Source: Acorus gramineus (lineage: Eukaryota > Streptophyta > Magnoliopsida > Acorales > Acoraceae). From it: a stretch of DNA of 64,000 nt. The notes below the pieces were generated by a model, which saw nothing but the letters and a program-made list of their open reading frames with translations, had not been told where the DNA came from and searched no databases. Positions within the stretch are counted from its first letter, which is position 1. The number at the start of each line of letters is the position of its first letter. The position numbers were made by a program, and so were the translations under genes. The DNA is taken from assembly GCA_030737835.1 (NCBI GenBank), contig CM060856.1, positions 10,581,670 through 10,645,669 on the forward strand, in the 5' to 3' direction. This document shows positions 11,469-64,000 of the stretch, one piece after another.

Positions 11469-14400
11469 CTAGGGTACTGACGACACTTTCTCAGTCATCT
11501 GCACATGTGTAAGTGGGGAGTGATGGTTAGGAGAGGATTTGCTAATTGCAGAGAAAAATTGAATTTGATTAGTTTTGGACTGACCGTTTGGGGATCGGGA
11601 GCTTGTTGCAGAGAAATCAGAGGAAGCCATGGGTATTGAAATGGAGAGCTGGGTAGTTGAGAAGGACGAGCGGTTGGACCTCTCATCGTCTAAATCAGAC
11701 CATGAGTCCCTCGCTTTGGGCCACTCGTCGAAGAAGGGTCGGAGAGACTGGGCTTCCTGTTTTACTGGCTCTGCGGCGCAGAATTCACTCCCGAAAAATA
11801 AATGCTGTTGCTGCTGCTGCTGCTTGGACAATGCAGATGCGAGGGTCGAGTGCCCGTAGTCTTGCATGGATTGCTGCACGTGGGGATAGTCGCTTTGAAG
11901 AAGTGAACCATTTCTGGGCTTTGAAGGTGGGAAGGGGGAGACTCGAGATGGCATCAGACGCCATGTGCTATCGAGAGAGGAGTCCATCGCAAGGTTTCTC
12001 ACGCCCCCAGATGCTTCAGAGAAGAAACTATGTTCATCAACATCTCCTTTTACTCCATGGAAGTACCTGTTTGTTTTTGTCCGAGCAGAGGAAATATTAG
12101 AAGTGTGCATGATTTGGAAAAAAACAAGTTACCAATGATTACAAGATCATATTTTAAGTAGAAGAAACCAACAAATAAACATAGCCCATCCCTTCTTTTG
12201 CATTTTTAAAGGCCTAGGTTATTTTTTTAAAAAACAAATTTACAATACAGGCAATTTCATTTTGCTTCATGCATCATATGTACTTTCCAGCTTTAATATT
12301 ATCGGGATCATTTCATGCTTCAAGGAATTTGATTTCTATCATTTTGAAGCACCATTGAGATTTAATATGACAATGTAAACATCAAACAATTTTTAAGGAC
12401 CACTAGCAGAAGGAAAGTTCGACAAAGCATAATGAGAATCGATAAACAGCAGACAAGAATTAAATGTTGATCATTTGCTTCATGCATCATATGTACTTTC
12501 CAGTTTTAATATTATCGGGATCATTTCGTGTTTCAAGGAATTTGATTTCTATCATTTTTAGCACCATTGAGATTTAATATGACAATGTAATCAAACTATT
12601 GTTAAGGACCACTAGCAAAAGGAAAGTTCGACAAAGCATAATGAGAATTGATAAACAGCAGACAAGAATTGAATGTTGATCAACCACATACAACTGAATA
12701 TAGAATACAGGATACTTTGGCACCAAAGAACATGTGCTGCAGCTGAATCATGAGCAAAAATATGTGTTGACTTAAGCATATTAGATCACAATACAAAAGG
12801 AAAATATTTTCACTTTTTTTTTTAAAAAAGATGACTTTTAGAGAACCTATTCACTCAAGAAAGAGATAATATGAAGATTTATCCTATAATTCAAGACAAT
12901 CTTTCACTTTCCTTTATTATGATAAAAGATGCAAATAAATTCTAAGCCCTACCCACTTTTATACACGAAAAAAAAATGTTGAGATTAACTTAACGCTGCT
13001 TTAAAAATACTTGGAGTGTATTAACACATTGAATATAAGGCAATGTAATTGAAGAAACTTTACCAACATCAATTGAAAATTCCACCTAGAATTTAGTGAA
13101 TCTGAACTGAGTCTTGCCCAGATTAATTGCAACTGGTCTTTATTGCATTCTTTTATCAAAAAGGAGAGTTTGTGGTGTGATAGCAGAAACGAGTACAAGA
13201 GAGCAGAAACAGGGCTACCCACAGAATTGTTTTGACCTTGTAAAGCTAAAACCATGTCATAGGAGCTAAATACTTTGTCAGGTAAACACTTTGACAAACA
13301 GCAGCAAACTAAAATTTCAACAATGACAAACAATTATTATCAAATTGTTTTCATCAAAATGATGGAGCAAAAAAATGTACATGTCAAATAGACAGAGGAT
13401 CATGGACCAACTATAAGACCAGCACCATAACAGGTGATGAGAAAAGGACTGTAAGTCATTACATTTTCGGTGTATAACTAACAGGTTTTGTCAGCTAGAA
13501 TTTCCACCTGCATCTTACTGCAGGGGCAATCATCAACTACCTCCTCTGATACACACAGAAATCGGAGTGCTATAGAGGGATAAATTTCAGACGACACAGG
13601 GCAACTGCTTCAGAAACCATTAATATCATAACCTTTTTATTACTTCCACAGGCACATTTATTCAACAACATGCATGACTGACTTCAAAAAGGTATTACTC
13701 ACAGAGCAGTACAGAACCCAAAACTCACGGCTTCTTGTTTTTTTTTTTTTAAAAAAAAGAAAGATTGGACTATCATATTGAAATGGCTCCTCTCGAACAA
13801 AATGGAGATTAGGGATCTACTACATGACAAAAGATAAATGATCAAAAGGTCACAAAGAAACCCTCGCCTAAGAAAACATGACTTTATTTTTTTTTATCTT
13901 CTTAACTATATCGTTTAGCTGATCAGGTAGTTTGTATGCACATAGTGATGCCCTCTCATAGATTAGACAGAGACGAAGTTTAGATTTTGAACAAAGTCTA
14001 TCAAATTAGATATTCCTCAAGTGCATTAACAGAATGGAAACATAAAAATCTTAGGTAGAATAGCGCACCTGTAATCTTTGTTACCAATACCATAGGGACC
14101 AGGAGGTTCCATCTGCAAGGAAGACACATTGCTGCTCCCTGAGCCAATGGTGTTCAATGGCAGGCTCTGGAAGCTTCCACCACTGCCACCACCGCCAGCA
14201 GCAGTGGAAGAGGATGCGGCAGAGGCAGAGAGTGATGTGAGGGTCGATGATGACTGAGTGAGGGAGTGGGTTTCCACAGGCTTTCTTGAACGGTTGCGGC
14301 CACGATGCATGTGCCGCTCGCAGTATTTGGAGTCCGGATAAGCGTCCTTGGAGCACCTCCACTTCTTTCCGTCTGTCCTCCTGCACCGCCCAGGCTCTGG

Positions 14401-15876
14401 GTCCAACTTCTTCCCGTAATAAGTGCAATACCCCACTGTGTCAAACAAATCATTGCATAAATACCGGAACAAATGTGCTTTGTAGAACATCTTATAGAAG
14501 AGCTAGACAATGTAGATCATGTAAATGCAAGTATCATGTGACTAGGCGATACACGAGACTCAAATCAAATATATCTCAAATAAATATTCACCGCAGTAGT
14601 GAACATCATTAAAAAAATAGTATTAAACGACGCCAAAGATTGATAAAATAAAAGCTTCCAATGTTCCATACAAAATCAAAAGGGTAATGAAAAGGCAATT
14701 TCAGTTATTGTTTCAAATACCTCAACATGATACTAAAAACAACTAAAGAAATAGAATGAATGTGAAAATACTGAAAGGACTGCAGAAGAACCAAAAAAAA
14801 AAAAACTGATTTGCATTCAAATCAAAACAAAGCAGGACGAACAAAAAACTGATACACGCATCTCAAATTAAAAATATCTCATATTAATATTCACCGCAGT
14901 AGTGAACATCATTAAAAAATAGTATTAAACGACGTCAAACATTGATATAATAAAAGCTCCCAATATTCCATACAAAATCGAAAGGGGAATGAAAAGGTAA
15001 TTTCAGTTTTTGTTTCAAATACCTCAACATGATACTAAAACAATTAAAGAAATAGAATGAATGTGAAAATGCTGAAAGGACTGCGAACCAAAAAAAACTG
15101 ATTTGAAACCAAATCAAAACAAAGCAGGACCAACAATAAGCGACCCTATCCCATCATAGAAACTATGAAACATCAATAGAAAGTTTTCAAACACAAATCC
15201 AAAACATGACACTAGAACCAAATAAATACACAAAATCATTGGAAAGAAACACATAAAAACCCCTGATTTCCAACAAAAACGATATACAGAACCCACAAAT
15301 CCGTGAGGGGAATGAGACAGATAAAAACCAAACAGTTACCCCCAGTAATAAAAACAAATAACAAACAATATTTTACTGAAACATTGAGAAGAATGTGTAT
15401 CATTCAAAATAAATAAGGCTTTCTTTGAAATAATTAAAAAAAAACACAAAAAATCCGTTGTGAATCAAATAATAGCAATCCCATCAACGAAACAAAAACA
15501 AGACACGATGAAATGACAATCACTGAAAAAAAAATCAATAGCTTCGATGATCATTCAAAATAAATACTTCAAAACATACATTAAAAACTCAAAACAATAG
15601 AAAATAGAGACAAGACTGCCATCGCAGACCTAAAAAAGACTAGAAGAACTAAAAAGCTTCACAAATATAAAAATAAAAGGGGATCATACTGGTTGGGTGG
15701 TGGAAGAAGCGAGCGGACATGGCTTCGAAGCTCTTCCGAATGGGGAGGAGGAGGTCAGGAGGGACCGGCATCCCCGCCATCAAGTACTTGAAGATCAGCG
15801 CCTGGTGTTCAAGTTCCTTCCACTGCGACGCCGTGAACGGCGGAACCCCCGCCGCAGATGCTGTCGTGCTGTTCAT
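11469..15876 (-). CDS. GRF: Growth-regulating factor (GRF) transcription factor, QLQ-WRC, 383 aa
   Basis: Three exons: 15690-15876, 14069-14435 and 11469-12066 (1152 nt including the stop). The QLQ domain is at about residues 13-48 ([20 protein letters not shown] ... [14 protein letters not shown]) and recruits the GIF co-activator. The WRC domain is at about 74-116 with the C3H pattern C80-x9-C90-x10-C101-x2-H104 and basic nuclear-localisation residues (RGRNRSRK). Then come Ser/Gly-rich linkers, a polyQ stretch (KQQQQQQH), an FFD..WP motif and a TQL motif; no clear GGPL motif is seen. Family role: nuclear activator of cell proliferation in leaves, flowers and roots. A miR396 site lies in the WRC exon. 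Both introns (1254 and 2002 bp) carry internal tandem duplications. Which of the angiosperm GRF groups it belongs to is not resolved here. Confidence 0.95.
12261..12682. repeat. Tandem duplication (about 213 + 209 bp) in GRF intron 2
   Basis: Copy 1 (12261-12473) and copy 2 (12474-12682) abut directly. Both start TTTGCTTCATGCATCATATG and end AATGTTGATCA, with scattered substitutions and small indels. The divergence argues against an assembly artefact. No coding content. Confidence 0.93.
14272..14293 (-). promoter_or_regulatory. miR396 target site in the GRF mRNA
   Basis: The plus strand reads TTCCACAGG followed by CTTTCTTGAACGG, the complement of the conserved GRF target. It matches miR396 with the usual one-nucleotide bulge, and encodes the RSRKPVE segment just after the WRC core. 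In other plants this site mediates cleavage that lowers GRF mRNA in older tissue. Confidence 0.9.
14548..15136. repeat. Tandem duplication (about 297 + 286 bp) in GRF intron 1
   Basis: Copy 1 (14548-14844) and copy 2 (14851-15136) share blocks such as ATTCACCGCAGTAGTGAACA, CAAATACCTCAACATGATAC and AAAGCAGGAC in the same order, with about 10 percent divergence by eye. No coding content. Confidence 0.9.
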
Positions 15877-48254: not shown

Positions 48255-49824
48255 TTAAGCGGAATTCCTAATAACAGACTCCAGAAAAGCATCCAAAGAA
48301 GCAGACGAGCTCTTGGGGAATCCGTCGGCGAAGACGGCACGCACCGAATCCGCGCGCCTCCTCGCCTCCTCATCGCCCAAGAGTCGCTCAATTCCTCGCG
48401 TGACGTCATCCTTCGTCACCGCATCCGGCTCCGCTCGGATCATGAAGCCGCACCGGAGCCGAGCCGTCACCAGCTTGGCGTTGTGGAACTGGTCACCGTC
48501 GATGGGCCAGGCAAGGATAGGCACACCGAATCGGAGAGCCTCCACCGTTGAATTCCACCCGCAATGGGAGATGAACCCTCCCGTGGACGGGTGGCTCAAG
48601 ATCAACAGCTGCGGAGCCCAGCCGCTTATGATAAGCCCTCTATCCCCGGCTCGGCCCGCCAAGCCATCCGGATAGTATCCAACCGGGCCGGGTCCGGGCC
48701 GTCCTTTCGGTTGGATCACCCATACAAAGGGCCGGGTGGACTCTTCTAGCCCGGCTGCCAGCTCAGCCAGCGAAGCTTCACTGGGACTCCTCAGGCTCCC
48801 GAAAGAAACGTAGATGACGCTGCCACGTGGCTTCGAATCCAACCATTCGAGGACCTCCCGCTCTCCGACGTTCGATTCTCGACCCGGTCGAATCTCGGCG
48901 TCTTGGACGGGCTGATCAAGCGAGTCCCAGAGCCGACCCGGCAAGAGTGGGCCCACAGCCCACACTGGTTTGCGCTTCTCGTTCGCCAGGTATTCGATGA
49001 ATGGACGCTCCAGATCGTCGCACGTATTGAAGAGCATGGCCGCTGAACCGTCCGTTCCCGCTATCCGTGGCGGCCGCATAAGCGAAGGCGGAGGCGGAGG
49101 GAGTCCTTCGATTCCGGGGGGCGGAGAGGGCGGGCGGTGGACATGTGTCATATCGGAGAGCGTGATAGTCACGTCGTCTGGAAGGCCGGGGACCGTCCGT
49201 TCCTCCCCGGGAACCAGCGATCCTTCCATCTGTACCTTCCACGGTTCCCGCTATCCGTGGCGGCCGCATAAGCGAAGGCGGAGGCGGAGGGAGTCCTTCG
49301 ATTCCGGGGGGCGGAGAGGGCGGGCGGTGGACATGTGTCATATCGGAGAGCGTGATAGTCACGTCGTCTGGAAGGCCGGGGACCGTCCGCTCCTCCCCGG
49401 GAACCAGCGTTCCTTCCATCTGTACCTTCCACGTGGCGTGATCTAGCGCCGCCGAGCAGGCGCTGGAGGTGAAGATGGTGACGGCGGGTATGTTTCGTTT
49501 GAGGCAAGTTTCGATGACTTGGTGCATCATATCATCCACGATGACGCAGATGATGGAGGAGGAATCTCGACCGTCGGATGCGTGGGAGAGGTAGTCAATA
49601 AGGGGATCGATGGTGGGTTGTTGAAGCGGAGGTGGACGAGGACGTGGGGAGGAGTGGAGGAACGTACGGACGAGTGGGTGGTGGTGGTGAGGGACGGATG
49701 AGGAATTTTTGGGGATAAGAAGGGCGACATGGTAATTTCGGGCTGCGAGTTGGTTGCAGAGCTCGGTGCACGGGAAGATGTGGCCCGGGTCGTGGTAAGG
49801 GACGACGACGATCTCGCGCGACAT
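48255..49824 (-). CDS. Family 1 UDP-glycosyltransferase (UGT) interrupted by a 190-bp tandem duplication
   Basis: The ATG at 49824 opens MSREIVVVPYHDPGHIFPCT; the His in DPGH aligns with the catalytic His of GT1 enzymes. The C-terminal half has the PSPG sugar-donor box (WAPQLLILSHPSTGGFISHC, GWNSTVEALRFGVPILAWP, DGDQ), whose final Gln usually indicates UDP-glucose. A 190-bp direct duplication (49054-49243 and 49244-49433) shifts the genomic frame: read straight through, the N-terminal frame stops at 48916 without a PSPG box, while the C-terminal frame begins in the second copy. Removing 190 nt, for example by splicing 49426|49235, gives 459 residues, a normal UGT length. Family role: cytosolic glucosylation of hormones or secondary metabolites; acceptor unknown and UGT subgroup not assigned. 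The gene is GC-rich and has no other intron. It could be functional with a new intron, a pseudogene, or an assembly artefact. Confidence 0.85.
49054..49433. repeat. 190-bp perfect-register tandem duplication inside the UGT coding region
   Basis: Copy 1 is 49054-49243 and copy 2 is 49244-49433, both beginning GTTCCCGCTATCCGTGG and ending GTACCTTCCACG on the plus strand. I find two mismatches (GTCCGTTCC/GTCCGCTCC and CAGCGATCC/CAGCGTTCC). 190 is not a multiple of three. Confidence 0.95.
49236..49425 (-). other. Candidate duplication-derived intron (190 nt) in the UGT gene
   Basis: On the sense strand both repeat copies contain GGAAG|GTACAG. The GT of the first copy (49425-49424) and the AG of the second (49237-49236) would bound an intron of exactly one repeat unit, joining TGG AAG|GTA CAG in phase 0 and restoring the full UGT frame. 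Against it, the interval is GC-rich and lacks a pyrimidine tract before the AG, unlike normal plant introns. Confidence 0.4.
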
Positions 49825-52160
49825 TTCGATCACTCTCTCTCTGCTTTGTTTCGCATTGAGATCTTTATTGTGGGGGTGGGTTCCTTCCGATACACGTCAC
49901 CGACATTGTCATTGATTTTGACTTATGGGTTTGAGTTGAGACTTTTGACTGATCGGTGAGTACGTAGTCTTCATTTTGGGTCGTTAAAAATGTTTTATAT
50001 TTTCTAATACAATTTATTCGTAATAAAATAAAATCTAATTTTCGAGAATAATCTCTCAACCTTATTTGTATAAAATAAAATTAGATTCAAACATCACTGG
50101 GCTTTTCCTTTTTATTTGTTGTTGAGGAGTCTTCTTCACATTTATGGAACAAATTAAAATCTCGCATTAATTTAAATTTATGCCTTCATTACTTTTATAT
50201 CCGTATAATTTAAAATTTAATTTCTATCTTAAAAATAAAAATTATTAAATTTTATCTCAGATTATCTGAATTTAAATATTATTCCAATAAAATTGTGATA
50301 AAATTTAAACTTTTTTTTTAAAATCATATTGAGCTTTCTTGGTTTGTTTCCGTGTCGGCTTTTTAAGTAGAAATATAGACCACTCATAGATGATATTTAA
50401 AGACTTCATCTTCTCTTTCTTTGACCTGGAGGTCCTTTAGTCAGTCTTAATATACGGTCGAATTGGCCTCTCGAAGACGAGGAATTGAAAGAAAAGTAAA
50501 AAAGAAATACAATAAGTATGGTCTAAAACCGAAGAAAGTACAAAAGTAAAACCTATATAAACATGGTCATACTTCATTTTATATAATAACATACACTTAA
50601 ATGGAAGAATGTAAATTAAAAAAAAATAAACAACAGTGTGGATTATGATTGGGATGACATTTCATTTTCCAATAATAAATGAGGGCCACTCTCGTTAAGT
50701 TATTGAGTTGGATCTTGGGTCATGTTTATGTGAATGAGTCCCTCTAATTGCACCCTTTATTTTCTGGTGCACACCCCTATATTTACACACCCAACAAAAA
50801 TCCATCATATTTTTTAAACACCCCTCATATATAAAATGAAATTTGATTTTTTGAGTACACCCACCCTTTGAAGGCATTTGAAAAACCCAAGAACTCTAAT
50901 TTTTTATATCACTCCTTCTCCCCCTCATCACAAGCTGTTCCATGCTCTCCCCCATTGTCCACTCAAGCCGTCTGGTGCTCTCCCTTTGTCGACATTTGTC
51001 GTCTCGTGCTTTCCCTCTCCGTCGACATCTCATGACCTCTCTTGCATGAATGTGCTATTTTTGTTGAACCACCTAGAAAATTGAAGAATGGGCTCCTGCT
51101 GCTAATAATGACACTGCCAGTGTCAAGGTATATCACATCCGTCGACACTTATATTGTTGACGGTGTCCCAGAAAATTGAATAAATATTTAGACAACTGCG
51201 ACGACACTGAAATTGTCAACATAATTTCACTTTCATATACTATGTTATGAAGAGATTTATTTATTTTTGTGCATAGGTTCTAGTTGCTACATGTTCAGTT
51301 ATGTGATCCCCGCAACACAAGTATTGTAGACATATACACAAAATATCAACATTGCTATTGTTACACAGGTTCCAGATGCTATGGGTCAGTTCTGTAATTT
51401 CACGACACAAGCATTGTCAACATATATACATAATATGTCGACACTGCTATTGTCGCATATGTTCTAAATGTTACAGGTTCAGTTTTGTGATCCCGCGACA
51501 CAAGTAATGTCAACATAAATACAGAATATCGACACTGATATTGTTGCATAGGTTCCAGATGCTACAGGTTTAGTTCTGTGATCTCCATGACACAAGCAAT
51601 GTCGACATAAATATAGAATATTGACACTGCTATTGTCGCAGATGTTTCATATTGTGAATGCTCATATAAGATCATAGAAATAAACCCTAGAGAAACCCTA
51701 CAAATTTTCACCGTTCGAAACCCTATATAAACATCCAACAACCCTAAACATGCATAAACATGGAGGAATATAAATCCGAATGTTTTGGGGTCTTCATGCC
51801 GTGATGTTTTTTTAGCCAAACTTCTTAAGTACGTGAAATCTGTCGTGTGTGCCGCCACATCACCACGTTGCAAGTCAGACCTTTTCCTTCACCGCTTCAA
51901 TTGGTCTCCTCTTCCTCCTCCTCCGTGCGTTCTCTTGTGTGCGCGAGAAAGAGATAATTTTACGGTTGTGGAGAGCGTGTGCAGCGTATAGATGATTTTT
52001 TTATAAAAGAAAATAATAGGTGTTTAAATAATGGAACGTGCATATGATCCGAATATAAATGAATCTTTTATATACTATCCAATAATAGAGTGCACCCCAA
52101 TTTGAGAGGTGAACCCTACGTGAACATGCCCGGTAACCCGGTTCACTACCGGGGACATAA
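49825..52160. other. UGT upstream region and intergenic DNA, no gene
   Basis: Mostly AT-rich. It contains a 92-bp tandem array (51271-51640) and, before it, related GTCGACA words (51000-51215). The short frames at 50878-51148 and 51562-51991 are not supported by any domain. Confidence 0.5.
51271..51640. repeat. Four-copy tandem array with about 92-bp period
   Basis: Units start near 51271, 51363, 51455 and 51545 (next boundary near 51638). Each contains in order GCATAGGTTCCAGATGCTAC, GTTCAGTTCTGTGATC, CGACACAAGCATTGTC and TCGACACTGCTATTGT variants. The copies differ at many positions, so the array is old. Related fragments occur to the left. Confidence 0.85.
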
Positions 52161-52242: not shown

Positions 52243-55200
52243 ATGTCGCCCTCCGCAACATCGGTTTCCGATTCTTCTCCTCCCTTCACCGCCTCGGAAT
52301 TCTCCGAAAACAATCTAGAGGTTCTCTCTCTCTCTCTCTCTTTCTTTGTCTCACTCACTCTTCTCCAATTACGTTCAACACGACAATCTCTTACTTTTTA
52401 TTTTGAAGCCCTTCTTTGTTCTACACAAGGGACTGTCACGGAAGCCGGAGAGGAAGTCCCCTTCGTCCCTAAGAGCGAAGCGAAGGATCGATTTGTCTCC
52501 GCCACTGTCCCCCAACCCCCCCGCGAAATCCAAGGCTGCTCAATCCGAGGGGGCAGTCGAATGCGCGTATGAACGGCTGCGCTCCGAGGCTTTTCAGCGA
52601 ACCTGGTCGAAGATCGAGTCCACCATCAATGTATGTCGAACTCCATCTTAAATTATGTTTCGATAAAACATTTTACCTTCTTCGTGATTCAAGATTCTTC
52701 ATTGAAGGGCGTTTTGAGGGGGATCAATGCAGATCTCTTCGATGAGGTCCACCATTGGGTCTGCGATTCGTTTGCAGAGATCAGGTCTATCGGAGTGCCT
52801 TCTGCCGCTGAAATTGTACAGCCGTATCCGCTCATAGTGGATGGCATTTGCAGACAGATTTTCACTGCATTGATCCTTACTAGTAAGCACCTAGTCTTGT
52901 AAATCTTATGATAGATATTTTTTTTAGATGTGGAACTATATAATAAGTTTTCCCTTCTGTTTGAATGTTTAGAGAATATCGAGTTTGTTGATGATTTGCA
53001 AACTTTCAAAGAGCTCGGTGAGCAGTTGAAGTTGAAGGGATGCCATGTGGTGAATCTCTCGCAGTCAGATTTTGTGATCAAGAATGGGATCGGCGGCTGC
53101 CTTAAAAGCCTGTTGGGGCAGCTTGTTTCAGATGCCTCTGATGTGAGTATAATTGATGCTCATTTGCTTTCCTATTTTCGAAACCCACATATTTATGTTT
53201 GTGTTTTCACAAAATCAGGTAGCTGATATTGCTGTATTGGCTTCGTGGTACTGTAAACCCGCTAATAATGATAAACCTGTGGTGGTGATCATTGATGATA
53301 TGGAGCGATGCCAGGGTTCTGTCCTTGCTGATTTCATTTTGATGTTGAGGTGATTGATTAAATGTGAAAAGGTTTTGTTTTATGAATCATTAATTTTGTG
53401 AGTTTTAGTTTTTTTATTTGGTTGATTATGTGGTTGTTTGAATACAGTGAATGGGTAGTTAAGATTCCAGTGGTGCTTATAATGGGAGTCACTACAACTG
53501 TTGATGCCCCAAGGAGGCTTCTCCCGTCAAATGCGCTGCAACAGTTGCGGCCTTGCAAGTTCATGTTGGGGTCTCCAACTGAGAGGATGAATGCCATTGT
53601 CGAGGCAGTCCTCTTGAGGCCATGCTCGGGGTTCACCGTGGGTTACAAGGTTTCTTTGTTTCTCCGGGACTACTTCACTAGGCATGATGGGACAGTGACT
53701 TCATTCATCAAGGCTATGAAGGTTGGTGGCCTATTTCTTTTTTCTTCATTTTCATAGCATGATCTTATGGGTAATGCAGTTTTATCTTGTTATATAATTT
53801 ATTATTATTATTATTGAAATACGCAGATTGCATGCATGAAGCATTTTTCTATGGAGCCTCTTAGTTTCTTGGGGTGTGGCATATTTGATGAAGATTTTCA
53901 GGTAAGAGCTCTTCCCTCCACTTGACAAAGCTAACGCATTGCCCTGTGATGGATTTTCTCTGATTTTATCCATCAATTGACATGATGAATTTGGAACACA
54001 CACACTCTCACTTACACAACTTTGGTACATAGTGATATTTGGAATGTCTACTATTAGAAACCAAGATGCACGTTCAAATTGTTATTTAAAATTGGAAAAT
54101 TCTAAAAAATTATCACCCCTGACGCATACATATCTGTTTACTAAATTTTTGATAGCCTTAGATGCCAGAAATTTTTTACTGCCCTTTTATGAAAATCTAG
54201 AGTGAGTTAATTGGAAGTGAACCAGCCAAGTCTGGCGTATCATTCACCTATTGTTTTATTTTTCTAATGCAGAGTTTTTCAAGAGACGTGGGAGAATCAT
54301 TGCCTTATGCGACGCTCAAATATGCTTTTGACCTTCCATCATGCCAAAGGTATGGATCAACATATGACCATTATCTAGTTGGGAGTATAATTATGTGCTT
54401 CATATTTAGTTCACTGACAGATTTTATTGGTAGAGAGCAATTTGCTGAGAGAACTGTTGATATGTTGACCAATGGTTTGGCTGAATTAAAGAAATTATGG
54501 GATTGCTGGAGCTCAGTGGTTCTGGTAAATCCTATTGGATATTTCTCTCTTGAAGTACATTGTTTCTTCATAAAATTTGATTTAATGTTATTTTTTTAGA
54601 TCTGGTTCTTTTACATTAAAAGTTTTAAAAGTTTCTGTGAATGAATCATCCATTTGCTAACACATGCATGTTTAGTGCAGTGCATCTATGAAGTTGCAAA
54701 GCATAGCAAAGTGCAGCTCTTGGACATTGTTTGTGAGGCCCATAACCCATCCTTATGCAATTTAAGGGCTACGGATCAATATTTGCCAATGACTTCGACT
54801 GATTACAGTCCACACAATGAAGGATTTCCATTGCTGAGAAAGGTTGGCATTATTTCTCGGGCAGTACATAAGGTAAGGTATGTATTGGTGTTTCTATTTT
54901 GCTTTGATTATTAATTTTTTTTTGCAATGTTCTTAAAATTATTATTCTCAATTAAAAGTATTCAATTCACAGTTAAACATATTATAATCAATTTGCCTAC
55001 AAATGAAACTGTTCAGTTTTTGAGTTACATTCCCCCAATTCCATCCTGTGGCTATATATATGGCTATACAATGCTGATAGTTTACCAGCAGATCAAATGT
55101 TGTTAATGATTATCATGTCAGTTGTCGATCTTTGTAATTGCATGTCCAAGTGCATTCCATTATGTGTTATTCCTTTAATATGAAAAGCTGCAGGTTATCT

Positions 55201-58200
55201 ATGTTATGTGCAAACAATGCACATTCTCGATAACTCGTCTTTAAGTTTGATGTGGAATTTAATTAAAATCCCAAGAACCATGTAATATTACATTTCAAAA
55301 TGTGTGGAGCCCAGAAAATGCATCCAATCATAAGATGCTTTGAGTTGCAAGTTTCTATTGGACTAGGCTTCTTCACCTGAATATCAACATGACCTAGATT
55401 TTCATGTCAGTTCATTTATAGTTAGAGCATGCTGCTATGTTTATTTTTGGCATCCTTCAAGTTCAGTTGAAATTCACTCAGAGACACACCAATACAAAGA
55501 AATTGCATGGGTATCCTGTGGATTATGTATGTTACATGGATCCTATTAGTTTATCTATTCCTTCTTTCTGATGCGTTTTATTTGTGTCAGGGATCTTCCA
55601 GCAGTGTCACTCTCTCATTTGCTTAATATTTTGGAGGGACACACTCAGGAAATGGCTGAGGTATAAGATGCTGTAATATAGAACAAGCTCTTCTGTCAAG
55701 ACTGTATGCTCATTGCAGATTTATATAAATATTTATTGTTAGGGGTTTCTTAAAATTTATGTCATTAGCCTTTTCTAAAAAGTCATTTATCAGAAAGAGA
55801 ATCATTTTTAAAATAGATCTGGTTGAGGTTGATGACATGGCAGATAAATTTAGTGTTTCGGCCTTCCAGGTTAAAGATATTTTCCTTTGATCGAAGAGTT
55901 AGAATTCATTAAAAAAATCCATTTCTGGGAAGCATTAACTTCTTTTTGCTGGACAGAATTGTTTGAAAAGTGTCATCAACCCCGAATGACTTTTGGTTTT
56001 TGTGTGAGATTGAGTTAAATGATCCATTAGCATAATTTGTTATCCATATTTTCAGATGGATGATATGAAGGGTAGTTCATTATAAAAACAGGGAAGTTTA
56101 AGGTGTGACTCATTGAAGTCTTGTCATTTTCTTAGTCATGTAAGCAGAAACATTTAAGTTGAGTCCTGTATTGAGTTGTGTGTGAATCCTGCCAACTTGC
56201 AAACTTATCTGCTTAAGTTTTTGTTTGTTGGTATGTTACAAATTCCAATGGTTTATGCGTACAAGAACTTTCCTTTTATATGTGCAAACTTGAAATCAAT
56301 CTACGGATGCTTATTTTATTCTTGGATCATATGTTTTCATAGGTTCATCAGAAAGTACAGGAGCTGCAGTTGGCATTAAGATCTGAGGATGATGGCAATA
56401 ATATCAAACCTGCAGCTATTGACTTGCGCAAGTAATTTTTCATTTCCTGATCTCTTCTTTCATTCTGCTTCAGTTCAAGCATGTTCAAGCATGTAATGTA
56501 CATTTTCCCATACAAGTCTTCCCTTTATATGTAGCTGCTACATGAGGAACCAGTGCTGCATGTTTATAACAGTTACATTTGTATGTTTGTGTCATTTATA
56601 TCCTCTCACATTTCAAGAGTTGCATCGTCAACTTATTTTTATCATTTGCATTCATGTGATAGGAGATCTATCTATCGAAGCCCTTTGAATGTGGAAAAGG
56701 GCTCAAAAAAACTGAATGAAAAAGCTTCCATTCTCATGGAGGATATGATCAGGTAAGGCCACATCACTCAAGAAAATATAATGTTCTATTTGGGCAGTCT
56801 AAAATCTCATCAATTTCTTGTTGGTTTCTGGAACAGGGATTATTTGAAACCTATTGAATCTGCGCCTTTTCATGAAATCATATGCTTTAAGCATGTTGAT
56901 GTGCTACAGTCTGTAAGTGTTCTGTCTTCATAGTATCTTGCATTATTGCTATGCTTACTGGTTTCATTGCTATATGGAAATCTCTTACTGCATTACTTCA
57001 GTACTCACTATTCATATTATTGGCTTGAATCCTTTTTTTTTTCTTTGCCCATTATTGCTATGCTTACTGGTTTCATTGCTAAGTGGAAACCGTATCATTG
57101 TTAAGATGAATTACCGATGTTCACCATTCTAAAAAATAAAAAAGAAAATGCATTGTTTTGTTATATCCATGCAGATTTTGGGGGAGGATCTGGGCTTGTA
57201 TCCCTAAAACAATGAAATAACTTATGAGAATTTGAATGGATGTTGATAACAATGCGTAAGAGAAATGTTGTGGCAATTTGAAGCAAAAGATATCAAGGAA
57301 CTGGGCTTTTTCCTCTATATAGAACTGTGTCATGTTTTTAACCTTGTAAATCTTATAAATTTAGTTAATGGCGAAGATATTCTCCCTTACACCTTGTCAT
57401 CCATTTCATGTCCTTGGTGTTTACTATGATATGAATATAATTTGGGGAGACACCCCATCCTTTCTCAAAATAATATTGAAAAAAAAAACATATGATGCAT
57501 GTATTGGTGGTTGCATGGTCTTTTTGGAGGCAGAAGCTCTGCAGCTGTTCTTTCAGAATAGGAATTTTTTTTCCATTATCAGAAATTGGATTAATGTTGA
57601 TTTTGAACTCGTATTGATGACTGCTTCATTTTCCAAATGTTTTATTTCCACAGGCTCTGATTGGAGATCCGAGGAAAATGATTCAAGTTGATCTTGTGAA
57701 ATCCAAAAATTATCTTCAATGCAGCTGCTGCAGGAGTGGGGGAGTTCTGTTGGCTTCAATGCATGATACATCATTAATGTAAGTAATCTGCTCTTTCCGT
57801 TGGATCTGTTGTAGATGATGATCATGCTTCTTATTTTAATGCAATAAGTTTTCTAATGCTTCGACCATATAACACCCCCAGCAATACCATACAATCTTTC
57901 GAGATGTTTGTAAAGACATTTAATTTTTTTAATTATAACGTAGTCTGTCCAATCATCTATAATGCATTAGATAATGATATGATGATTTTTTTTTGGGGTT
58001 TGTAAATAAATTGTTTTCTTGAAAAATGTATAGTTACAATTTACAAATGAACATTTGATATGGAGGCTGGGTGCCTCCACTTAATTGCTATAGATTACAT
58101 TCTGTGTTGTAAACACTTGCTATTAAGGAGGTAACCTCGGTGCATCCCCTAGCAGCAGATGTCAACAGTGCAGAATGGTCTCTAAAGTCTTACATGAGGA

Positions 58201-59515
58201 CCTTTTACAAGAGGATTTCCCACAGTACAAAAGGACTGTATAAATCAACAAGTTCTTCTTGTCCTAACAGTCATATTCACCCGCTTGAATGGCCATTCTT
58301 TGGTCATCCCAAATGTCTTGAGCATGGAAGAAAGAGATTCCCATGCTCTGTTGTTTTTTGGCCAGAAGATCAGCTGGAATGTTGCCTTCAGGTGATTTGC
58401 TATGTTCTCTGATGCATTGGGAAATAGCATGAGGTTATCGGCTAAACCGATGTGGCTTAATGTTTAATTGGCCATTCAAGTACTTATCGACACTTCTATC
58501 TTCAACAACTGCTTGGATTTTTTTAAGAGAGAGAGCTTCCATTACTAAGACAAAAAGAAAGGGTTATAGTGGATCACCTTGTCTTGTGTTTGAAAAACAT
58601 ATAATCACTTTATGCTGTCATATCCTGTCCAATTCTCTATAATGCAGTAGATAATGATATAAAGAATTGTGGAGAAGGTTTTATCACACTTCTACAAATT
58701 CTAGCTTATGAACAAACCATTTTGAATGACTGACTTCTCATTTTTCTTTGCTGCATGTGAAACATGTGGTCCCAGGTACTCTTTAGCTCGGGAGCATGGT
58801 GATCTTATAAACCTGCATGATTGGTATCAATCATTCAAAGCAGTAGTGAGTGTCTCGAGCGCTAAAAACAAGCGTAAGATGCCAAAATCCCCATTCAAGA
58901 AGAAAAAACTAGCTGCTGATCTGGCACCAGACACAAGTGAAGCAACACTTCAGTATCCTTTTATCATTCTCTTGTCAATTTTGTGCTCATTCATCAGCAT
59001 GCTTTCTATTATGCCGGAGTTCATGAAGGGGGACCAGTTTTTTCACGCTTAAGTGATAATCAACCATATAATCTGTTTAACGCCAACAACTAACTGAAAA
59101 CTTGTAAGCTGAAACCCATTATTTCAGGTAGATTTGAAGAGGGTAGGTGACAAATTGCTTGATTGAATTAAGAAAACTGTACTACAGCCAAAATTTTGTA
59201 CCACGGTTAAAACATCATGAATTGTGGGCACTTAGTTATGTCTGGGTGATTTCAGTAGTGTAGTCCATGGTTTTATGAGTGATCCCTTTCATTTAATTAA
59301 TACATTGTCCGTCCCATTTTCAAGTGACAGCATTGTAAATACTGTTATTTTCTGACATCCAGTGACACGCCAACGCTCCATGAACATCCTTAACTTGAGC
59401 TTCTCCCAGAGCTCGTTTTTGCAGGGCAGTCACAGAGCTCCAAATCACAGGCCTTCTCCGGATGCCGAGCAAGCGACGCCCAGACTTTGTGCAGAGGGTC
59501 GCCTTCGGAATTTAG
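52243..59515 (+). CDS. ORC3: Origin recognition complex subunit 3, 740 aa, 17 exons
   Basis: Exons: 52243-52320, 52409-52630, 52708-52882, 52973-53142, 53219-53349, 53448-53721, 53827-53901, 54273-54349, 54434-54524, 54681-54877, 55591-55660, 56343-56431, 56663-56752, 56837-56912, 57654-57778, 58776-58952, 59410-59515 (2223 nt, every phase consistent). Recognised by PFFVLHKG after exon 1, KNIEFVDDLQTFKELGEQLK, the Walker-B-like VVVIIDDMERC (236-246), LSEWVVKIPVVLIMGVTTTV, SGFTVGYKVSLFLRDYF and the C-terminal TELQITGLLRMPSKRRPDFV. ORC3 is a structural AAA+-like subunit of the nuclear ORC that marks replication origins and loads MCM. SP sites near residues 56-61 (IDLSPPLSP) could be CDK targets. 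A basic stretch (KRKMPKSPFKKKK) precedes the last exon and may be a nuclear signal. The promoter has an E2F site; the last intron has two in-frame acceptors 15 nt apart. Confidence 0.96.
56941..57091. repeat. 42-bp direct repeat in ORC3 intron 14
   Basis: CATTATTGCTATGCTTACTG and following bases occur at 56941 and again at 57050 (109-bp spacing) with few differences (CTATATGGAAA versus CTAAGTGGAAA). Confidence 0.75.
58140..58625 (-). pseudogene. LINE (L1-type) reverse-transcriptase remnant in ORC3 intron 15, antisense
   Basis: On the minus strand from 58584 the text RQGDPL*PFLFVLVMEALS is the conserved non-LTR reverse-transcriptase block. About 130 bp further, in another frame, HIGLADNLMLFPNASEN corresponds to the FADD active-site block and what follows it, with F to L and D to N changes, and the reading continues toward 58245. 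In-frame stops and at least one frameshift show it is dead. It sits in an intron of about 1 kb, opposite to ORC3 transcription. Confidence 0.8.
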
Positions 59516-60387
59516 TATTCTCAATCTCCTGAGCCTTTTACTGTAAATTATAAACTGTATATGTAAGTCCCACAGAAACTTGAATGAGCTGTGTTAGTTA
59601 AATCAGTCGAGTGAAACGTCAGTGTCTCCACGTGATGTGGCAATTTCATATGGTCCCATTACGGAACCCCATAAAAGCGAAAGCCACCTAAGTGTGTCGG
59701 TGCTAGTACACGTGACGGGGGAGAAAATATACCCAACGATAATAATGTGTGACCAGAAATTTGGGAACATAAAAGACAAATCACACGTGCTTATTTGGAG
59801 GGGTAAAAATTGATGTACTAGGTTTGGGCTCGCTCTCTTCGGCTCCAGTAGTGATTGTTGCTCTATTGAACATCGAAGACACAGGGAGATGTTGAACTAG
59901 GGTTTTGAAAAAAAAGATTTTTACATATCTCAATAAACAGAATTAGCTTTCTATTTATAATGTTGTTAAAGTTGCCCTTGAGACCATTACCAATGGTGGA
60001 TCTCTTCTCAATTCATGGATCTCTATTCTGGGGATCAAAAATATATATTTTAGGGATTTGTCAATTAGCTATTGATTAGCTTGGTCAAAGATATATATAT
60101 TTATCAGGGATTTTAGGATCGGTTCCACTGTTGATGACTCTTTATTAAATATTCAATGAGATATATTGGATCATTGTTTCCGTCGAATCTGAGCGGGCTG
60201 ACGGGCAGGGCTACGCTAGATTCGGGTCGCCTAGGTCGCAGACTATCGCATTCAGGTTATGGGCCATGGGTGGTCAGATCTGTTTTGGTGGGCCAGGAAA
60301 ATGGGCCCCACACTATCATGTAGAGTTATTTAACCATTTCAAACCTCAACACGGTCTGCATTGACTTCATTTTCTTTGCCCTCTAAA
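59516..60387. other. ORC3 3' flank and CDI-like promoter
   Basis: Mixed-composition intergenic DNA with ORC3 3' UTR at the left. A GC-richer patch (60185-60300) precedes the CDI-like start. No other gene is seen. Confidence 0.5.
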
Positions 60388-61182
60388 ATGGTGCTTCCGA
60401 TCATCGCTGATATCAACCGAACCACCACGTCAAATGGAAATCCGCCATCAGAGCCGTTCAAGATCTTCGTCGGCTACGACTCCCGCGAGGACCTCGCGTT
60501 CGAGGTCTGCCGCCACTCCATTTTGAAGCGCTCCTCCATCCCCGTCGAAGTCATCCCGATCCGACAGCCCGACCTCCTCCGTGACGGGCTCTACTGGCGC
60601 GATCGGGGCCCCACCGAGTCCACCGAGTTCTCCTTCACGCGTTTTCTCACGCCCTACCTCGCCGGCTTCTCCGGCTGGGCCATGTTCGTCGACTGCGACG
60701 TCCTCTACACGGCGGACATCAGAGAATTGACGGACCTGATCGACAACCAATACGCGGTGATGTGCGTGAAACACGAGTACGCGCCGAAGGAATCCACAAA
60801 GATGGACGGGGCCGTGCAGACGGTGTACCCGCGCAAGAACTGGTCGTCGATGGTCTTATACAATTGCGGGCACCCGAAGAACCGGGTCCTGACGCCGGAG
60901 CTCGTGAGTTCTCAGACGGGCGCGTACCTTCACCGGTTCATGTGGCTTGAAGACGAGGAGATCGGGGAGGTCCCGTTCGTATGGAACTACCTGGTCGGGC
61001 ACAATCACGTGGACGAGAGGGACCGGGAGGGGACGTTCCCGAAGGCCATACATTACACGGAGGGTGGTCCGTGGTTCGAGGCGTGGAAGGATTGCGAGTT
61101 TGGGGAGATGTGGGTAGAGGAGATGGAGGAGTATTTGAAGGAGAGACGGAAGACGTTTGTGGCGGCGCCACTTGATGTTTGA
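60388..61182 (+). CDS. CDI: CDI-like nucleotide-diphospho-sugar transferase, 264 aa, intronless
   Basis: The ATG at 60388 (AAAATGG context) opens MVLPIIADINRTTTSNGNPP; the in-frame upstream extension to 60361 begins with TTG and is not used. The protein has KIFVGYDSREDLAFEVC at about 25-41, FSFTRFLTPYLAGFSGWAMF, then a DXD motif DCD at 102-104 (metal/nucleotide-sugar binding in GT-A folds), and HYTEGGPWF near the C-terminus. This matches the plant CDI family of single-exon GT-A-like proteins; the Arabidopsis member is reported to be required for pollen germination and tube growth. The sugar donor and acceptor are unknown. No signal peptide is visible, so it is presumably cytosolic. The coding region is very GC-rich, with C/G at third positions, in strong contrast to its AT-rich flanks. 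Confidence 0.9.
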   Translation: MVLPIIADINRTTTSNGNPPSEPFKIFVGYDSREDLAFEVCRHSILKRSSIPVEVIPIRQPDLLRDGLYWRDRGPTESTEFSFTRFLTPYLAGFSGWAMFVDCDVLYTADIRELTDLIDNQYAVMCVKHEYAPKESTKMDGAVQTVYPRKNWSSMVLYNCGHPKNRVLTPELVSSQTGAYLHRFMWLEDEEIGEVPFVWNYLVGHNHVDERDREGTFPKAIHYTEGGPWFEAWKDCEFGEMWVEEMEEYLKERRKTFVAAPLDV

Positions 61183-62264: not shown

Positions 62265-64000
62265 CGTTATCAGCACGAGAAGCTCTTTGTTAAAGAGAAA
62301 GGTTTGTATTCGGTGGGTTCTTAATGATCTATATAAAAAATATACTCCCCCTTGATGTTATGTATTTTTATGTAAATCATCTACTACATACATATGATTA
62401 ATTTTTTTCAATATGCATGGAACCATATGCAAATTATGTGTAGAACTCATATACATCTATCTTTTATTTTCATCTGATGTACTGCATACATCTATCTTTT
62501 ATTTCCATGCATGCAATCCCCGTGAAAATTTTCCATACATATATTATGATATGATTAATTTATGAAAACTAGTATGCAATTTTCTCATGCAACAGTATGC
62601 GACATCTATCATTTGATTATTTATTTTTCATGTAACTGTTTCATGTTTGTCATCTTTTATTAAAATTTAAATATTATACATCTATGTGTAGAACCAGAAG
62701 TTCTCACAAATATCAATTAATTTGATATTTATATTTGATTTGAAATTCATTTTAATGTTACAATGTCATGTGTCCCTATAGGATCATACAAAAATTGTAA
62801 TTACATGGATCCCTGAAGGACCATGTAGAAGTTATGAATAATGTGTTCCAATTAAGACCATGTAAATTTTATTCTATCCCTGAAGGACTACAAAAATTAT
62901 TACATGGATCCTTGAAGAATCATGTAAAAGATATTATTAAAAATGTCCCTGAAGGACTATGATTATATTGTATCCATGAAGGATCATACAAATTTTATTT
63001 TATTTTATCCCTGAAGGACTGTACAAAAATTATGATTATATGAATCTTTGAAGGATCATGTAAAATTTTATTTTGTTCTATCCCTGAAGGACTATACAAA
63101 AATCATGATTGTTCGTGTCCCTGTAGGACCAAACAAAAGTTATATGATATATTTTTTGGGTCCTTGAAGGACCAAATAATAAAAAAAAAAGATCCATGTA
63201 TCCCAGCAGGAACATGTAAAATTTTATTTTGTTCTATCCCTGAAGGACTATACAAAAATTATGATTGTTCGTGTCCCTGTAGGACCAAACAAAAGTTATA
63301 TGATATATTTTTCGGGTCCTTGAAGGACCAAATAATAAAAAAAAAAATCCATGTATCCCAGCAGGAACATGTAAAATTTTATTTTGTTCTATCCCTGAAG
63401 GACTATACAAAAATTATGACTGTTCGTGTCCCTGTAGGACCAAACAAAAGTTATATGATATATTTTTCGGGTCCTTGAAGGACCAAATAATAAAAAAAAA
63501 GATCCATGTATCCCAGCAGGAACATCTAAAATTTTATTTTGTTCTATCCCTGAAGGACTATACAAAAATCATGATTGTTCGTGTCCCTGTAGGACCAAAC
63601 AAAAATTATATGATATATTTTTCGGGTCATTAAAGGACCAAATAATAATAAAAAAAAAGATCCATGTATCCCAGCAGGAACATGTAAATTATGATTAGAT
63701 TTCACTATCATCATCATAATGAAGAGGATTTAAATATTAATACCTCATTGACAAAGGTCCACCGACCATAATGCCTCAAATATGCTCTAGTTGTAGCGAT
63801 ATTGAGAGCATTAATTTTATATATTCTCGTTGTCGAACAACGATTTTTTTAAAATATCATGTAACTCAACTCAATGGTATAGCATCATTACCCGAAGTAA
63901 ATGCATTTTATTTTATGTTCGCTATGGGAGTTGTGGTCATGAATGATGAGATCATGATTTATATAGTTGAGAAAGCACAACAATCATAAAGTTTGTAAAG
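62265..64000 (+). mobile_element. Retrotransposon leader / start of internal region, truncated by the window edge
   Basis: This follows the LTR and consists of AT-rich DNA, then the repeat block at 62780-63690. After it a short frame starts at 63771 (MPQICSSCSDIESINFIYSR), with several Cys but no recognisable gag or pol domain before the right edge. It may be the start of an element-encoded protein or a chance frame. Confidence 0.5.
62780..63690 (+). repeat. Hierarchical tandem repeat: short TCCCTGAAGGACTAT motif within a 156-bp higher-order unit
   Basis: From about 62780 a motif of type TCCYTGAAGGAYYAT recurs every 30-50 bp with variable spacers. From about 63058 these are organised into a regular unit: GATCCATGTATCCCAGCAGG starts at 63191, about 63347, 63501 and about 63659 (periods 156, 154 and 158). 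Each unit contains CTATCCCTGAAGGACTATAC, GTGTCCCTGTAGGACC and GGGTCCTTGAAGGACC, which are themselves partly self-complementary. The units are nearly identical, so the array is recent. The 104-codon frame at 63164-63478 is only this repeat translated. Confidence 0.85.

Follow-up and report, generated by a model that had tools for sequence, protein, structure and literature searches.

A young, frame-breaking 190-bp tandem duplication in a family 1 glycosyltransferase gene of Acorus gramineus: probably a loss-of-function allele rather than a newborn intron

The analyzed window, a 64,000-nt stretch of contig CM060856.1 from the Acorus gramineus assembly GCA_030737835.1, contains no N at any position. 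A gene for a family 1 glycosyltransferase (UGT), which carries a tandem duplication inside its coding sequence, lies on the minus strand of the window (48255–49824; ATG at 49824–49822, stop codon ending at 48255). On the plus strand, positions 52244–58930 are occupied by a presumably ORC3-like gene, annotated by hand with the last exon left out; it has no fewer than 15 introns, of which two end in GAAG. In addition, a plus-strand ORF of 273 aa at 60361–61182 gave no PDB match at E 0.001; presumably, it resembles a plant glycosyltransferase family 8-like protein.

Self-comparison of the sequence revealed two head-to-tail copies of a 190-bp unit at 49054–49243 and 49244–49433, identical at 188 of 190 positions. 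The unit at 49244–49433 is the first copy in the minus-strand transcript and would be mostly intronic if the transcript were spliced, while the unit at 49054–49243 is the second copy and would be mostly exonic. The pair is too long and too alike to be a chance match. The copies differ at 49200 (T) versus 49390 (C) and at 49220 (A) versus 49410 (T); one of these differences is silent, and the other exchanges Ser and Thr. The run of matches is exactly 190 positions long, so the junction is blunt, with zero microhomology. Each unit contains one AGGT on the minus strand, located within the site AAG/GTACAG (the slash marks the possible exon–intron boundary). An earlier inspection of the DNA by eye (hereafter the sequence-only reading) had described a recent 190-bp tandem duplication in a UGT gene; its coordinates, copy number and two mismatches were all reproduced, and the low divergence between the copies agrees with a recent event. 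At plant substitution rates, two changed sites in 190 suggest an age of roughly a million years, which has a wide interval and is not a firm date.

When both copies are kept, translation gives 302 aa and ends at a premature stop codon at 48918–48916 on the minus strand, as seen in the ORF translation; the unit length leaves a remainder of one when divided by three. Removal of one unit (49236–49425) yields a 459-aa protein whose PSPG box is intact, so that the frame claims of the sequence-only reading held on both points. According to the Pfam search, the one-unit protein belongs to the UDPGT family (PF00201, E 2.4e-22). Its best PDB match was 9bcm (E 6.4e-112), aligned in three stretches that cover the duplicated part too. 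The name of the 9bcm record is 'Glycosyltransferase' only, and the identifier 9BCM appears in none of the papers listed by a literature search; the protein is presumably UGT95A1. The PSPG box (WAPQ...GDQ) is located downstream of the frameshift at 48489–48620 on the minus strand, as determined from the one-unit protein and the paralog alignment with coordinates counted by hand; its name and 44-residue bounds are those usual for the family. The alignment with paralogs also shows that the catalytic motifs keep their histidine and aspartate, residues that presumably have the same roles as in other UGTs. The combination of a UDPGT domain and a PSPG box, which marks plant family 1 UGTs, was established for the one-unit protein only. 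The present protein is similar to plant family 1 UGTs and 9bcm in its UDPGT match and PSPG-type motif, and its duplicated part can be aligned with 9bcm, both having a proline-rich stretch there. In the present gene, by contrast, the frame is broken unless one of the units is taken out. Apart from the duplication, no lesion was found in the UGT coding sequence.

The genome assembly (398.6 Mb, 137 contigs) was searched for related sequences. One DNA search retrieved the locus itself only, with no second copy or allele among the best candidates scored. Among the best candidates scored in the protein search, 77 matches had an E value of 1e-20 or better; the best-scoring match outside the locus was 36% identical, with partial stretches reaching 47%, and there was no close paralog or second allele by which the two differences could be polarized. 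Eighteen of the matching loci (L004–L021) were considered for alignment, of which the 13 with an ORF longer than 400 aa were used and the other five were dropped. The one-unit protein is colinear with these distant paralogs, and a second unit's worth of sequence is absent from the duplication site in all 13 aligned proteins, two of which (L009 and L015) are shorter there. Because the 13 paralogs, all of them distant, lack a second unit, the ancestral state was probably a single unit. Two paralogs, L017 and L019, are near-identical UGT genes located about 107 kb apart on the same contig (C6).

The sequence-only reading had further proposed that the duplication could be a newborn intron, with the GT of the first copy and the AG of the second delimiting exactly one unit. 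Splice sites were scored with matrices derived from 15 hand-annotated introns of a single neighbouring gene, the presumed ORC3-like one, and all splice scores given here depend on these matrices; the joined exons of that gene translate without a stop, the last exon being omitted since its junction was unclear. The putative 190-nt intron (49236–49425, minus strand; AAG/GTACAG ... GTGGAAG/G; 459 aa) has a donor score of 5.2, an acceptor score of -3.0 and a GC content of 0.66. The donor ranks first among the 68 GTs of the UGT gene, tied with its own second copy, and lies inside the native leave-one-out range (-0.4 to 10), as expected of a usable 5' splice site. As for the acceptor, the native scores are 4.1 to 10.2 for fourteen sites and -4.8 for one. 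The absence of a pyrimidine tract before the acceptor had been named earlier as a weak point; the 17 positions before the AAG include 5 pyrimidines, and the final 20 nt contain two T versus 5–12 in native introns. AAG acceptors occur in 2 of the 15 native introns.

A better acceptor than the AAG at 49236, also in frame and not named in the sequence-only reading, is the CAG ending at 49230, 6 nt downstream (GGTACAG/A); its score of 1.8 is still below 14 of the 15 native acceptors. With the same donor, it defines a 196-nt interval (49230–49425, minus strand) that would give 457 aa with the loss of Val-Gln and has the top near-unit score. A further alternative of 175 nt (49251–49425, minus strand; acceptor GATAG/C ending at 49251) is in frame and would give 464 aa with a very weak acceptor (-8.6); the frame is therefore restored by acceptors at 175, 190 and 196 nt alike. 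The only branch-site-like word of the YTNAY type in the interval is CTTAT (49268–49272, minus strand, offset 153), whose A precedes the AAG end by 33 nt and the CAG end by 39 nt. A C-rich tract is located upstream of this word and not between it and the acceptor. In total, 389 GT-AG pairs of 60–800 nt allow translation to continue to the normal stop codon; when these are ordered by summed score, the 196-nt pair comes third and the exact 190-nt pair 20th. Besides the 196-nt pair, the 15 top-scoring pairs listed comprise 14 that give proteins of 262 to 426 aa and are therefore unlikely to yield a useful enzyme. A product of 459 residues is likewise obtained with another 190-nt pair (48965 to 48776), but it is a different protein.

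In composition, the interval is exonic in character. Its GC content, noted as high in the sequence-only reading, was measured at 66%, with 34% A+U and 16% T, versus 24–38% GC, 62–76% A+U and 33–51% T in the 15 native introns; the exon parts of the UGT gene have 58% and 62% GC, so that the interval is not AU-rich relative to its exons. The predicted folding energy is -0.36 kcal/mol per nt versus -0.02 to -0.21 in 11 short native introns, which is partly a GC effect. The predicted unpaired fractions are 0.35 for the donor, 0.47 for the CAG and 0.05 for the AAG, and those of nine native introns range over 0.12–0.58 for donors and 0.03–0.52 for acceptors; the donor and the CAG are thus predicted to be as accessible as native sites. 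In the GC-rich UGT paralogs L017 and L019, a 179-nt intron is predicted that has 27% GC, compared with 63% in the exons on either side; it is the best-scoring open pair and not an annotated intron, and the two near-identical genes count as about one case. Paralog L020 shows an AT-rich dip too, and it was left out because its best pairs (GC 0.29–0.39) disagree on the donor; L012 was also left out of this comparison.

Previously, AU-rich sequence has been described as defining plant introns, according to a review (PMC2682935). The same review states that AU below 59% was not tolerated in a synthetic intron in tobacco and that monocots, whose introns average 63% AU, are more tolerant, about 20% of their introns being near 50% GC. 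At 34% AU, the present interval is outside both the tobacco and the monocot ranges given there. The maize Bronze2 intron, a GC-rich one for which higher GC in the flanking exons improved splicing (PMC2682935), points in the opposite direction and by analogy may favour splicing of a GC-rich interval.

In silico duplications of the UGT coding sequence were used as chance controls. AGGT occurs in 383 of the 1190 possible 190-bp units of this sequence; for three further coding sequences in the window, the counts are 716 of 1904 (38%), 1453 of 1985 (73%) and 330 of 632 (52%). It is not unusual for a duplicated unit to include this motif. The chance that a duplication hits the AAG/GTACAG site is about 16%. 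The score of the real exact pair was reached by 188 of 1190 simulated duplications, 181 of them containing the real site. The near-unit score, defined by donor/acceptor pairs of 175–205 nt that give at least 454 aa, was reached by 58 of 1190, of which 9 had the real site. A coarser run (170 units, 7-base steps) gave 27/170 for the exact pair and 8/170 for the near-unit score. The splice pair of the real duplication ranks above that of most simulated ones without being exceptional. The best pair of any length was rejected as a measure, as 139 of 170 simulated duplications at least equalled the real one and it therefore had no power. As for the otherwise intact frame, 0.79 disabling lesions are expected without selection at the observed divergence, with P(no lesion) of 0.45, on the assumptions that indels amount to 12% of substitutions and that 80% of them are disabling; P(no lesion) varies from 0.91 to 0.06 across 0.24 to 7.2 changes. 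Since the frame had a chance of about 45% of staying intact without selection, it is uninformative as a sign of function or splicing.

Similar duplications are present elsewhere in the genome. Tandem duplications in a 200-kb sample include units of 219 bp at 97% identity (L029), 194 bp at 94% (L039) and 409 bp in three copies at 98% (L024), and another tandem pair in the window has a 209-bp unit (12261–12682). No tandem array of period 50–500 was found in 70.5 kb around 18 UGT paralog matches, which indicates that UGT genes as such are not often affected by events of this kind. Two-copy tandem duplications whose unit exceeds 150 bp are those of 190, 209 and 302 bp in the window (49054–49433, 12261–12682 and 14548–15097, respectively), 219 bp in L029 (6783–7219), 194 bp in L039 (8323–8686) and 199 bp in L040 (6322–6704). 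Five of these six units are 190–219 bp long, near the nucleosome repeat length, a set too small for a test. Further two-copy arrays have units of 53–91 bp. The window also contains an array at 51267–51646 with a 92-bp unit in four copies at 77% identity, the 183-bp reading of which is a doubled 92-bp unit, and an array at 62958–63688 with a 155-bp unit in four copies at 96%.

Intron gain by tandem duplication of AGGT (the Rogers model) has been documented for ATP2A1/ATP2A2, fission yeasts and a potato RdRp variant (PMC4974935). According to the same paper, few recent intron gains have been proven together with their source. A table in a review (PMC3443670) includes 188 intron-gain events, with Arabidopsis and Oryza among the species and many entries imprecise. 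The present locus has the arrangement assumed by this model, namely, a head-to-tail exonic duplication containing AGGT, in which excision between the AGGT sites restores the frame (459 aa). It shares with vertebrate ATP2A1 (Hellsten et al. 2011) the head-to-tail exonic AGGT segment, and in both cases excision from the GT of copy one to the AG of copy two would remove a single unit. However, the ATP2A1 unit is described in PMC4974935 as carrying a pyrimidine tract and a branch point, whereas a tract before the acceptor and AU-richness are missing here; for ATP2A2, the same paper reports that splicing was reproduced experimentally, whereas it is putative for the UGT duplication. The potato RdRp intron, as presented there, likewise goes back to a recent tandem duplication in a plant; its cryptic donor lies in a former exon, and the copies are still similar (ten nucleotides differ). 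In contrast to the wholly exonic UGT unit, the potato unit contained a real intron end with acceptor, tract and branch site; its GC content is 36%, compared with 46% for exon sequence, and its splicing is backed by 106 RNA-seq reads (PMC4974935). Small tandem duplications formed by fill-in at break ends and end joining, described in PMC8355091 for human and mouse cells, resemble the present one in the two-copy head-to-tail unit and the blunt junction, the latter suggesting a similar cause for the UGT event. None of the papers listed in the literature search on UGT examples and intron gain by duplication was recognized as dealing with the present locus.

Taken together, the young frame-breaking duplication is probably a recent loss-of-function allele or incipient pseudogene. 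A staggered break, repaired by fill-in and end joining, would probably have duplicated the 190-bp coding segment in tandem and thrown out of frame a UGT gene without a close second copy. The transcript would most likely keep both copies and encode a truncated 302-aa protein, which may be expected to be inactive. Against this explanation stand the lack of any other lesion, the donor that is the best of 68, the fair CAG acceptor, the small number of simulated duplications (58 of 1190) reaching the near-unit score, and the UGT regions without arrays. That the gene was dispensable before the event, the duplication being one hit in a dying gene and possibly polymorphic in the species, is very unlikely: other lesions need not be expected yet (0.79 expected, P(none) 0.45), but none is present, and the histidine, the aspartate and the PSPG box are kept. 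An assembly artefact, in which two allelic or overlapping ends of a single genomic copy were joined head to tail, would fit the intact remainder of the gene and the two differences in 190 bp, a plausible level of heterozygosity. We consider it unlikely, however, given a window without N, a DNA search with no second allele among the best candidates scored, and a clean junction at the exact unit; with duplications of similar size elsewhere, the artefacts would form an odd series.

The remaining alternative is a newborn spliceosomal intron formed by duplication of a proto-splice site according to the Rogers model, with an active enzyme being made; the GT of the first copy would pair with the AAG (190 nt, exact) or, more likely, with the CAG (196 nt, loss of Val-Gln). 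Of the sequence-only reading, the geometry, the frames, the PSPG box and the low divergence stood. In favour of an intron are the geometry, the top-ranked donor, the three frame-restoring acceptors, the CTTAT word 33–39 nt upstream, the AAG acceptors of two native introns, a near-unit score equalled or beaten by few simulated duplications, and a donor and CAG as unpaired as in native introns; in addition, the mechanism is documented elsewhere (PMC4974935 and PMC3443670), and GC-rich flanking exons aided Bronze2 splicing (PMC2682935). The proposal is opposed by the exon-like composition (66% GC, 16% U), the stable predicted folding (partly due to GC), the AAG score of -3.0 and its low accessibility (although one native acceptor is at 0.03), the two T in the last 20 nt, the CAG that scores below nearly all native acceptors, and the AT-rich intron predicted in the GC-rich paralogs L017/L019. 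The sequence does not bear out the step from duplication to a newborn intron; the geometry is right but the support for splicing is weak, and splicing at useful levels is rather unlikely. Similarly, it is doubtful that a wholly exonic GC-rich duplication is spliced mainly via the CAG and was caught within about a million years of intron gain. If this were true, the gene would have been caught before AU-richness and a pyrimidine tract evolved.

If the interval is spliced, the locus would exemplify the AGGT model in a plant with purely exonic material, its parent unit being still about 99% identical, and would show that splicing can come first and AU-richness later. Without splicing, the duplication would be a null allele of the ordinary kind, useful as a negative case in which the right geometry combined with the wrong composition does not make an intron.
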